48,260 nucleotides of DNA from Alphaproteobacteria bacterium. Lineage in GTDB: Bacteria > Pseudomonadota > Alphaproteobacteria > Caulobacterales > Aquidulcibacteraceae. The stretch lies in the NCBI GenBank assembly GCA_030430715.1, contig JAUIJZ010000013.1:1-48260 (forward strand), read 5' to 3'. The notes under the pieces are model-generated. The model did not search any database. It was not told the DNA's origin and was given only the letters and a program-made list of their open reading frames with translations. Below, piece after piece: positions 23,540 through 26,466 of the stretch (position 1 is the stretch's first letter; every line of letters starts with the position of its first letter). A program made the position numbers and the translations under genes.

Positions 23540-24730
23540 GTGACCGACAAGACCTTGGATTGCTCCGATCTCGACCAGCACATGGGCAAGCCCATCCAAG
23601 AGGCGAAGCAGAAGGAAAAGCTGCACAACAACGAATTCCGCCGTTGGGCGCAGGCGATGCACTATCCGAACCTGCTGCACTACGATCACGATTACTCCAA
23701 GGCGAGCCGCTTCCGGAAATTGGTCGCGCCGCAATCCTTCGCCGTCGCCACCGATGACGGCCACGGCGCCGGGCCCGCATGCGTGGGCCGGATTCCCAAT
23801 TCGCACCTCATCTTCGGCGGCGACGAATGGTGGTTCTATGGTCCGCGCATTGTCGCCGGCGATCTCATCACCAACGAAAAGATCCCGCTCGATTACGTCG
23901 TCAAGGAAACCAAGTTTGCCGGTCCGACCTGCTTCCAGCGCGGCGACAACAATTATCAAAATCAAAAAGGCGAATTGATCGCCAAGCAACGCTCGACCGC
24001 CATTCGCTATCGCCACGATCTGGCGCTGGAGAAAGGGGCGCTCACCAATACCGAAGACCCTGAATGGACCGACGAAGCGCTCGAGCAACTCGAAGAACAG
24101 AAGCTCGAATTCATCAATTACATGCACGACCTCGGCCATAAGAAAAAATACTTCGAGGATGTGAAGGTCGGCGACAAGCTGCCGACGCGCGTGTTCGGCG
24201 TGCACTCGATCGCCAGCTTCGCCACTGAATGGCGCGCTTACCTCTTCACCAATTGGGGCAGCACGCATCGTCCCGTCATCGACATGGAAGCGCTCGGCTA
24301 CGACCCGAAAATGGCCGGTCACGAGAATGACGGCGTGATGGAGCGCATCAATCCTGAACTCACCGACGGCGCCTATATCGGCCCTTCGCGCGGCCACCTC
24401 TTCCCACGCTGGGCGCGCTATATCGGCATGCCGCGCGGCTACGGCTATGGCGCCTCGATGGGCGCGTGGATCCTCGACTATCTCGCCGGCTGGGCGGGCG
24501 AATGGGGCATGGTCACGCACGTCAATTCCGCCTATCGCGGCCCGGCCTTCACCGGCGAAGCCACCATCATGACAGGCAGCGTGGTCGATAAGATCGTCGA
24601 TGAGGAAGGCCGCGACGTTGTGCAGATCGACGTCAAAATGGCGAGCCATCTCGGCGTGACCATGGCCACCGCCAAGGGCGAAGTGCTGCTGCCGAAAAAG
24701 AAGAAGCCCGCAGCGAAAAAGACCGCCTAA
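23540..24730 (+). CDS. Two-domain MaoC-type acyl dehydratase-like protein
   Basis: A 396-residue protein built of two hot-dog-like halves, of the kind annotated FAS1-like dehydratase plus MaoC-like. The N-terminal half contains SFAVATDDGHGAGP and FGGDEWWFYGPRIVAGD, typical of the PF13452-like domain. The C-terminal half has GPSRGHLFPRWARYIGMPRGYGYGASMGAWILDYLAG and VTHVNSAYRGPAFTGEA, the fatty-acyl hydratase fold. The tail is Lys-rich (KKKKPAAKK). The GTG start at 23540 has GGGAG nine bases upstream. Proteins of this type hydrate enoyl-CoA-like or polyketide and steroid side-chain intermediates. The P450 and ferredoxin downstream suggest a shared catabolic or modification pathway. Confidence 0.72.
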   Translation: MTDKTLDCSDLDQHMGKPIQEAKQKEKLHNNEFRRWAQAMHYPNLLHYDHDYSKASRFRKLVAPQSFAVATDDGHGAGPACVGRIPNSHLIFGGDEWWFYGPRIVAGDLITNEKIPLDYVVKETKFAGPTCFQRGDNNYQNQKGELIAKQRSTAIRYRHDLALEKGALTNTEDPEWTDEALEQLEEQKLEFINYMHDLGHKKKYFEDVKVGDKLPTRVFGVHSIASFATEWRAYLFTNWGSTHRPVIDMEALGYDPKMAGHENDGVMERINPELTDGAYIGPSRGHLFPRWARYIGMPRGYGYGASMGAWILDYLAGWAGEWGMVTHVNSAYRGPAFTGEATIMTGSVVDKIVDEEGRDVVQIDVKMASHLGVTMATAKGEVLLPKKKKPAAKKTA

Positions 24731-24777
24731 ACGCAGGATCCGGCTGCGCGCGAGCCCGCCTAGGTTGACGCGCGCCG

Positions 24778-24806
24778 TTGACTGAGCGACCGCCCAGTTT
24801 TATGAG
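24778..24806 (+). promoter_or_regulatory. Promoter of the P450 operon with embedded palindromic operator
   Basis: TTGACT (24778-24783) and TATGAG (24801-24806) are exactly 17 bases apart. Between them lies a palindrome, ACTGAGCG-AC-CGCCCAGT (24781-24798), with 7 of 8 arm positions paired around a two-base centre. A palindrome of this size sitting between -35 and -10 is typical of a TetR-family operator, so repression released by a ligand is likely. No tetR gene is present in the window. Confidence 0.55.
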
Positions 24807-24868
24807 CCACAGCATATCATTTAACGGCGCCACACTGCGATAACGTGCGCCGCCAGGGAGGCGTGCAC

Positions 24869-26131
24869 ATGACGAACTACGACAGCGTCGACATTTTCAC
24901 CGATGTGGGCGTGGCCACGCGCCCCGACCCATTCATCGAGCATTTGCGCAGCAAAGGGCCGGCCACTTGGCTGCGGCCCGACGTCGTGGCCGTCACCGAT
25001 TACGCCACCGGCCTCGCCATCTTCCGCGACGAAGAACATTATTCCACGGTCAATTGCACGTTCGGCCCGATGGAATTGCCCTTCAAGGTCGAAGGCGATG
25101 ACATCACCGACCTGATTGAAGCGCACCGCGACCAGATCCCCTACGGCAATCTCATCCTCAATCAGGATCCGCCGCATCACGCCAAATCCAAGGGCGTGCT
25201 GATGGGCATCATCACGCCAAAGCGGCTGAAGGAGAATGAGGAATTCCTCGTCACCCTCGCCGACCGTCAGATCGATGAATTCTTCAAGGACGGAAAATTC
25301 GAAGTCATCACCCAGTACAGCCAGCCGTTCGCCACGCTGGCGATCGCCGACCTGCTGGGCGTGCCGGAAGAAGACCGGCCTACCTTCAAGACGCTGACCG
25401 GCTCATTGCCGGGCGAAATCGGCGGCGTCGCCCCCGAAGACGTTTCGTCCAATCCGCTGGCGCAAATCGGCATCTTCTTCTTCAAATATATCGAAGACCG
25501 CCGCGCCAATCCGCAAAAGGACGTGCTGACCGATCTCGCGCTCCAGAAATATCCTGACGGCACGCTGCCTTCGACGGTCGACATCGTCACCGCCGCGACC
25601 TTCCTGTTCGGCGCCGGCCAGGACACCAGCGTCCGCTTGATCGCCGCTATGTTGCGCTACCTCGCTGAGGATCAGGAACTGCAACAGCGCCTGCGCGCCG
25701 ATTACAGCCTCATTCCCAAATTCACCGAGGAAGTCCTGCGTCTCGAAGGCACGGCCAAGGCCACCTTCCGGCTGGTCAAGAAGAAGGTGAAAATTGGCGA
25801 CATCGAAGTGAAGCCTGGCACGAGCGTCATGCTCATGATCCGCGCCATGAACCGCGACGGCAAACGCTTCGAAAACCCGGCCGATCTCGATATCGCGCGA
25901 CGCAATTCGCAAGAGCATGTCGCGTTCGGGCGCGGCATTCACGCCTGCGCCGGCGCCCCGCTCGCGCGCGCCGAAGCCCGCGTCACCTTGGAGCGCTTGT
26001 TCGACCGCACCAAGAACATCCGCATCAACGAAGCCAAGCACGGCCCGGCCAATGCGCGCGAGTATAATTACTGGAAGAATTATCTGCTGCGCGGCATCAC
26101 CGAGCTGCACCTCGAATTCGATCCCGCGTGA
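24869..26131 (+). CDS. Cytochrome P450
   Basis: A 420-residue soluble bacterial cytochrome P450. The heme-binding motif is FGRGIHACAGAPLARAE with the axial Cys360. The I-helix oxygen-binding motif is FGAGQDTS (residues 247-254) and the K-helix ExxR is Glu288-Val-Leu-Arg291. The C-terminal YNYWKNYLLRGITELHLEF segment fits the group of P450s found beside ferredoxins in Alphaproteobacteria. The ATG at 24869 has AGGGAGG seven bases upstream, deciding the start. It likely hydroxylates a hydrophobic substrate with electrons from the ferredoxin encoded next. Substrate is unknown; a terpenoid, steroid or fatty-acid derivative is possible. Confidence 0.93.
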   Translation: MTNYDSVDIFTDVGVATRPDPFIEHLRSKGPATWLRPDVVAVTDYATGLAIFRDEEHYSTVNCTFGPMELPFKVEGDDITDLIEAHRDQIPYGNLILNQDPPHHAKSKGVLMGIITPKRLKENEEFLVTLADRQIDEFFKDGKFEVITQYSQPFATLAIADLLGVPEEDRPTFKTLTGSLPGEIGGVAPEDVSSNPLAQIGIFFFKYIEDRRANPQKDVLTDLALQKYPDGTLPSTVDIVTAATFLFGAGQDTSVRLIAAMLRYLAEDQELQQRLRADYSLIPKFTEEVLRLEGTAKATFRLVKKKVKIGDIEVKPGTSVMLMIRAMNRDGKRFENPADLDIARRNSQEHVAFGRGIHACAGAPLARAEARVTLERLFDRTKNIRINEAKHGPANAREYNYWKNYLLRGITELHLEFDPA

Positions 26132-26139
26132 GCAGAACC

Positions 26140-26466
26140 ATGGTGAAGATTACTTACATCGAAGCCAATGGCGACAAGCAGATCGTCGATGCAACGCCCG
26201 GCCAATCGCTGATGCAGGCGGCAACGCGGGCCGCCGTGCCCGGCATTCTCGCCGATTGCGGCGGCGCGGCTGCGTGCGGCACCTGCCGCATCTATGTGGA
26301 CGACGCCAATTATCGCGCCAAGATGCCGCCGCGCAGCGAGATGGAAGACGCGATGATCGAATTCCACGACGATTCCGAGCCGCACGTGCGGCTCGCCTGC
26401 CAGATTCAGGTGGTCGAGGAATTTGACGGCATGGTTCTCCGCATGCCGGAAAGTCAGCACTCCTAA
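26140..26466 (+). CDS. [2Fe-2S] ferredoxin (P450 redox partner)
   Basis: A 108-residue plant/adrenodoxin-type ferredoxin. Cysteines at 40, 46, 49 and 87 (ADCGGAAACGTCRIYV and RLACQIQV) match the C-x5-C-x2-C...C cluster pattern of P450-partner ferredoxins such as putidaredoxin. The start MVKITYIEANG is that of the family; a GTG 12 bases earlier overlaps the P450 stop as GTGA and may instead be used. No ferredoxin reductase is encoded nearby, so electrons must come from a reductase elsewhere in the genome. The gene ends the P450 operon, followed by a strong hairpin. Confidence 0.93.
   Translation: MVKITYIEANGDKQIVDATPGQSLMQAATRAAVPGILADCGGAAACGTCRIYVDDANYRAKMPPRSEMEDAMIEFHDDSEPHVRLACQIQVVEEFDGMVLRMPESQHS

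Follow-up and report, generated by a model that had tools for sequence, protein, structure and literature searches.

A palindrome across the candidate promoter of a CYP150-like cytochrome P450 gene as the putative operator of a TetR-family repressor encoded on another contig

The palindrome that lies across the spacer of the candidate promoter of a cytochrome P450 gene, in a 48,260-nucleotide stretch of DNA from an alphaproteobacterium (the window, which is the whole of contig C124 of a 3.24-Mb genome), is probably the operator of a TetR-family repressor. The TetR protein encoded on contig C123 is its candidate cognate regulator, and would control the P450 gene in trans within a dispersed regulon. 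The comparison of loci linked both a TetR subfamily and related P450 genes to the motif, and showed that one gene for a regulator with the matching recognition helix is present in the genome. From these sequence comparisons we infer the binding, the repression, the ligand, the promoter itself and the role of the C123 protein as cognate regulator.

In the proposed mechanism a dimer of the C123 TetR would sit on positions 24781-24798, where it would cover the spacer together with a portion of the -35 element, and when bound would bar RNA polymerase by occlusion from the -35 and -10 elements of the transcript that presumably carries the P450 and the ferredoxin together. A small molecule, perhaps the substrate of the P450, would then release the repressor, ligand release being the habit of the TetR family. 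Two further targets are predicted for this protein, namely the PQQ-dehydrogenase-tetR pair to which its own gene belongs and a second P450 gene, located on contig C154. The features concerned are collected in Table 1.

Table 1. Features around the P450 promoter region and the gene of the candidate regulator (positions are those of the window unless a locus is named).
Feature	Position	Strand	Basis or remark
FAS1-like dehydratase/MaoC-type hydratase	23540-24730	+	Pfam PF13452; GTG start 23540 by eye
-35-like hexamer TTGACT	24778-24783	+	5/6 match; read from sequence
18-base palindrome ACTGAGCGACCGCCCAGT, proposed TetR-family operator	24781-24798	+	sequence, shared motif, matrix score
16-base palindrome core CTGAGCGACCGCCCAG	24782-24797	+	motif common to TetR-P450 intergenic regions
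-10-like hexamer TATGAG	24801-24806	+	4/6 match, position 6 not T
probable ribosome-binding site AGGGAGG	24855-24861	+	by eye
cytochrome P450, CYP150-like	24869-26131	+	Pfam PF00067; PDB 6dcd; ATG start by eye
2Fe-2S ferredoxin, probable redox partner	26140-26466	+	Pfam Fer2
C123 TetR gene	L058:4389-5030	minus	TetR with subfamily recognition helix

The first-pass annotation had placed TTGACT and TATGAG 17 bases apart, with an 18-base palindrome of seven paired arm positions out of eight exactly between them. The letters and the spacing are exact, and the palindrome is found as described, seven of its eight arm positions pairing around a two-base centre. It does span the spacer, but it is not exactly between the two hexamers: it begins inside the -35 element, which it overlaps by three bases (24781-24783), ends two bases short of the -10 element and is therefore off-centre. 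The -35 hexamer follows the end of the hydratase gene after 47 bases, and the P450 gene starts 72 positions on from position 24797, where the 16-base core ends. The sequence TTGAC is present twice at a distance of 13 bases, at 24765-24769 and 24778-24782, that is, just before and in the -35 element. The pair TTGACT/TATGAG is absent from the list given by a sigma-70 scan of the window because the scan demands T at position 6 of the -10 element. When promoter-like pairs (at least 5/6 and at least 4/6 matches) were counted with no rule for position 6, 12 were obtained on both strands of the window versus 10.4 in shuffles, and TTGACT/TATGAG is accordingly considered here as no more than a candidate promoter of the P450 gene.

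The shape of the palindrome, taken alone, is weak evidence. Palindromes with at least seven of eight arm pairs and a two-base centre number 51 in the window, compared with 41.5 +/- 7.3 in 30 first-order shuffles, and a fraction of 0.108 of 2000 shuffled 138-base regions holds one; being so common, palindromes of this quality were rejected as evidence on their own, and their frequency is one argument for a chance palindrome devoid of function. Against chance stands the joint placement: one promoter-like pair in the window has such a palindrome near the centre of its spacer, and 2 of 100 shuffled windows contain one. Against it stands also the fact that the site precedes the kind of gene that bears such an operator in another phylum.

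The latter point comes from the actinobacteria. In Williamsia limnetica a TetR gene precedes the P450 gene, and the gap between them holds CTAAGCATATGCACAG and CTGAGCGTGTGCACAG. The Williamsia TetR was used as query against 181 genomes of the Williamsia family, Williamsia included, at E<=1e-20, and matches were found in 34 of them when up to 16 best candidates per genome were scored, with 65 matches listed. From the top 31 of these, 30 loci were assembled as set A, in which the genes L148, L149 and L151, with a stop inside the TetR match, were counted. The pattern CTRRGCRNNYGCYYAG was found at no more than one mismatch in 28 of the 30 loci and exactly in 17, the corresponding means over 20 rounds of shuffling being 1.1 and 0.05 loci and the maxima 3 and 1; the other two loci, L157 and L130, contain a two-mismatch and a three-mismatch version, respectively. 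A P450 gene is adjacent in 23 of the 30 loci, its product being 44-51% identical to the P450 of the window, and the TetR and P450 genes are divergent in 21 cases and tandem in two. In all of these 23 loci, which were chosen for comparison by TetR-P450 adjacency, the TetR and P450 genes flank the site, whose distance from the start of the P450 gene ranges from 23 to 182 bases. L155 has two sites, one of them at 72 bases, equal to the distance in the window; the L155 sequence CTGAGCGACCGCTCAG and the window core are identical but for one base.

A matrix was built from the 17 unique sites of set A (34 sites in 27 loci), the window being left out. The 16-base core of the window scored 17.5, within the range of the training sites (15.1-22.8); when the 138-base region was shuffled 3000 times, 2 shuffles reached this score. 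The outer bases, in contrast, do not fit the actinobacterial matrix, and this mismatch favours chance. With 20 columns, i.e., two outer bases added on each side, the window scored 8.2, below all of the training sites (16.7-29.2); 53 of 3000 shuffles did as well, as did 29 sites in 206 kb of sequence of the same genome, which consisted in part of stretches chosen because they held the motif. A G precedes the core in 17/17 unique sites and a C follows it in 14/17, positions at which the window has A and T. The outer TG...CA on both sides, present in 8/17 unique sites, is usual rather than defining, and it is lacking in the window; the right half CTGGGC of the window occurs in none of the 17. Among 11 regions of the genome lying before P450, tetR or related genes, the core matrix gave high scores to three, namely those before the window P450 (17.5), the C154 P450 (19.3) and the C123 pair (22.5), the other eight ranging from -5.4 to 1.1. 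The site is absent upstream of the P450 paralogues on C112 and C133.

Further copies of the palindrome in the genome had been proposed as a sign of a regulon. Exact matches to CTRRGCRNNYGCYYAG, the looser of two patterns employed, are four in 3.24 Mb, one of them inside a GSDH gene on C78, and those to CTNAGCRNNYGCTNAG are found only at C123:11199 and C154:26777, the window core being one mismatch from this pattern. Both exact copies of CTNAGCRNNYGCTNAG are intergenic, with open reading frames judged by eye: the former stands before the PQQ-tetR pair; the latter has a helicase gene on one side and, after a gap of 27 bases, a P450 gene on the other, and no T run follows it. The objection that the palindrome might occur at random throughout the genome holds for general palindromes and for one-mismatch sites, which stayed at background, but not for exact CTRRGCRNNYGCYYAG. 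Sites one mismatch away numbered 27 versus 24 for the reversed control, with no clear excess, and near-matches of the looser pattern 40 versus 48, with no excess. The full 18-mer with up to three mismatches (64 versus 51 in the control) was dropped as evidence. In eight of a further nine genomes or plasmids the reversed pattern was the commoner; among the matches listed for the nine, the exact motif occurs in Williamsia (1) and Actinomadura (2), with none from a plasmid. Two of these three are intergenic by eye, and they were not used as evidence. Shuffles matching CTNAGCRNNYGCTNAG as well as the original were 35/20000 for the window region, 1/20000 for C123 and 8/20000 for C154. The window sequence was already known when the two patterns were drawn up, and for CTNAGCRNNYGCTNAG in particular the matrix figure is therefore the fairer one. 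With near-match counts at background and ill-fitting outer bases on one side, and the core-matrix and pattern shuffles, the joint placement and the kind of gene on the other, a functionless chance palindrome appears improbable.

Alternatively, transcription of the upstream hydratase gene might end at the palindrome, which would act as a weak intrinsic terminator whose hairpin has GACC as its loop and TTTTAT after the stem; such a function could coexist with that of an operator. For the 29-base RNA the folding energy is -6.7 kcal/mol (z -3.07; 3/200 shuffles as stable); the hairpin lies 50 bases past the stop codon of the hydratase gene, with TTTT after it. The copy on C123 lies after the stop of a PEP carboxylase gene, and has a better stem (-9.3) followed by ATTTTCTT; it could therefore also terminate, and may serve both ends, as terminator and as operator. 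The stem of the window hairpin, however, contains an internal A-C mismatch and its T run is of four bases only, it is absent from a terminator scan of the window, and it does not appear in the minimum-energy structure of longer stretches of 56 and 138 bases. Moreover, termination leaves unexplained both the match to the TetR-P450 intergenic sites and the C154 copy with its missing T run, and it is an improbable explanation of the palindrome.

Turning to the putative operator and its regulator, the first-pass annotation had suggested a TetR-family repressor encoded outside the window and an orphan tetR gene to be sought in the genome. The comparative data support the TetR-family reading, with a regulator encoded elsewhere: the genome gives 17 TetR_N matches at E<=0.001, of which 16 exceed the cut-off, and C124 has none of the 17. 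Four of these proteins, encoded on C123, C25, C151 and C18, are members of the wider subfamily. The recognition helix in the 30 rows of set A reads AGLKPQLVHYYF or AGLKPQLVYYYF, and among the 17 TetR loci of the genome the element GLKPQL was found only in C123, which reads AGLKPQLVHYYF; the C123 protein is thus the TetR of this genome with the AGLKPQLV[H/Y]YYF recognition helix, as found in the P450-linked repressors of actinobacteria. Its mean identity to set A is 47%, compared with 38-40% for the C25, C151 and C18 proteins, and exceeds its mean identity to set B (42%), the control group described below. In the tree the P450-linked TetRs of set A form an open fork with the four of the genome and with most of set B, and the tree gives no support for deriving C123 from the P450-linked group. 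The C123 tetR gene follows a gene for a PQQ-dependent alcohol dehydrogenase, and the intergenic region before the pair holds CTGAGCAATCGCTCAG. The subfamily was found in 0/149 other relatives at 1e-10, where up to 20 best candidates per genome were scored, and in 0/384 other genomes of the class at 1e-15, where up to eight were scored and members may be missed.

The existence of four related TetRs, among which the tree does not single out C123, is also a reason to consider that the palindrome could be the operator of another protein, either the C25, C151 or C18 TetR or an unrelated regulator. The helices of these three TetRs differ from that of C123, and the motif was not found upstream of their genes. 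A further argument for another regulator is provided by set B, which comprises 20 of the other 34 listed TetR matches, less similar to the query. A promoter-side site was found in two of the 20 loci, L167 (1387) and L168 (1379), in which the exact 16-mer of the window stands just before an SDR gene, between the SDR and TetR genes. The TetR recognition helix of both reads AGVKPALVHYYF, and the relation between helix and motif is therefore not one to one. Other sites in set B lie inside the tetR coding sequence (L158, L162, L169, L173) or downstream (L165); in two of the 20 loci (L171, L174) the helix was not found by pattern, and neither has a site. The loci L170, L173 and L175 encode a P450 46-49% identical to that of the window beside a TetR with another helix, and lack a promoter-side site. 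It follows from these controls that the motif tracks the helix more than the P450, L167 and L168 being the exceptions.

The sphingomonad plasmids, in which P450 genes stand beside other palindromes, equally speak for another regulator. In S. yanoikuyae pKN1 (L068 7809-7969) a related P450 gene comes after a different TetR and two TATGCGA...TCGCATA palindromes, and in Novosphingobium RL4 (L070) a related P450 gene is preceded by ATACCAACTGGTTGGTA; the regulators of related P450s seem to have changed. Taking the differing helices and the missing motif together with these points, control of the palindrome by a protein other than the C123 TetR is considered rather unlikely, and the operator of the C123 TetR is retained as the preferred reading.

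The plasmids also hold candidate operators of the subfamily itself. On a plasmid of Sphingobium sp. V4 (L097 5661-5678) a perfect 18-base palindrome, GCTAAGCACGTGCTTAGC, occurs 33 bases past the tetR stop and 16 bases past TTGACC, and the gene after it looks similar, by eye, to the one for a TauD/TfdA dioxygenase that adjoins the RAC03 TetR gene in the annotation; the palindrome is a strong candidate for an operator of the same TetR subfamily. In RAC03 and N. resinovorum (L096 6600-6613, L098 4944-4957) the palindromes TGAACATGTGTTCA and TGAACACGTGTTTA lie near TetR genes of the wider subfamily, and may be variants of the operator in which AC stands in place of GC. No such site was found near the TetR gene in M. 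madagascariense or on C25, C151 and C18, so that the motif or a variant stands beside 5/9 of the TetRs compared. The sphingomonad plasmid P450s and a 65% hydratase were also tried as a comparison for the window and rejected, as they had other palindromes or no adjacent P450.

As for the P450 itself, its best solved relative is CYP150A6 (PDB 6dcd; E 6e-127, 420 residues aligned). Members of a CYP family share more than 40% identity with one another by the naming rule, and the 23 set A neighbours that lie above this value are themselves not named CYP150 members. Better matches come from actinobacteria, among them those of Williamsia limnetica (49%), Actinomadura rifamycini (46%) and a Mycobacterium branderi plasmid (49%), while the sphingomonad plasmid P450s are 43-45% identical and the paralogues within the genome 46% (C112) and 39% (C133). 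Among 150 genomes, the own one included, the best-scoring P450 outside the genome itself was 34% identical; in 384 other genomes of the class none was obtained at E<=1e-60 with up to four best candidates per genome scored, and no orthologous P450 promoter was found in the relatives searched, a point that counts against the operator reading. Besides the four related TetRs the genome encodes several P450s, with 12 matches in the P450 search; some of these TetRs and P450s were not found in the sampled relatives, and hydratases and other probable catabolic genes occur near its TetR or P450 loci on C123, C25, C151, C18, C112, C133 and C154. These TetRs and P450s with their catabolic neighbours are perhaps an acquired catabolic set.

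It is tempting to speculate, although this is a tentative and on balance doubtful scenario, that this lineage acquired a P450 of actinobacterial type and its repressor, which then separated, the detached TetR now governing a small dispersed regulon in trans. If this were true, the regulon would consist of the CYP150-like P450-ferredoxin genes, the C154 P450 and the operon of the PQQ-alcohol dehydrogenase to which the regulator itself belongs, and operator and helix would have stayed matched across phyla while the gene order was lost. The relatives on sphingomonad plasmids display shifted palindromes of the TGAACA...TGTTCA types (RAC03, N. resinovorum), through which a joint change of helix and operator could be traced, and the loci as a whole constitute a natural series for the helix-operator specificity of TetR proteins across phyla. 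The analysis turns an isolated palindrome into a testable set of one candidate regulator, three predicted promoters in one genome and some 30 loci from actinobacteria that share the operator core.

With regard to known systems, CYP150A6 is the closest solved P450 to that of the window, and beta-ionone oxidation is reported for CYP150A5 (PMC6237146). The partner of the latter is a 3/4Fe-4S ferredoxin, whereas the P450 gene of the window is followed by that of a 2Fe-2S ferredoxin, and the words 'TetR' and 'regulator' are absent from the main text of that paper (PMC6237146). For isolates without nid genes, a role of cyp150 genes in pyrene degradation has been suggested (PMC10301208). The organism of CYP150A5, with its Mmar gene tags, is presumably Mycobacterium marinum. 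A literature search on CYP150 and TetR, including the accessible parts of PMC6237146, PMC9148083 and PMC10301208, named neither an operator nor a TetR regulator of CYP150, and since nothing relevant on CYP150 with TetR was found, the operator offers a route to the inducers.

Repressors of the TetR family acting on P450 genes are themselves of an already known kind. EdcR of Caenibius tardaugens has been described as a TetR-family, estrogen-dependent repressor; the edc cluster includes a P450 hydroxylase gene, and a palindrome lies in the core promoter (PMC8700777). The EdcR operator TnnCnnTACnAnTnGTAnnGnnA overlaps the -10 element, and the gene of EdcR lies inside the edc cluster (PMC8700777). 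The candidate regulator of the window is encoded on another contig, and the palindrome of the window is unrelated in sequence to the EdcR operator. PheR was rejected as a comparison, being described as a member of the IclR family (PMC13273656). A survey of mycobacterial TetRs gives its motifs as logos, which its text does not spell out (PMC4482099), and the putative operator of the window could overlap one of the motifs predicted there. The closest comparison is that with Williamsia limnetica (L035, L128) and its relatives. In the loci of the Williamsia family the TetR gene adjoins the P450 gene and a G precedes the core, whereas in the window the candidate TetR is encoded on a different contig and the flanking bases differ. 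The two systems are alike in the core CTRAGCR-NN-YGCTYAG, the recognition helix, the related P450 and the distance from site to gene.
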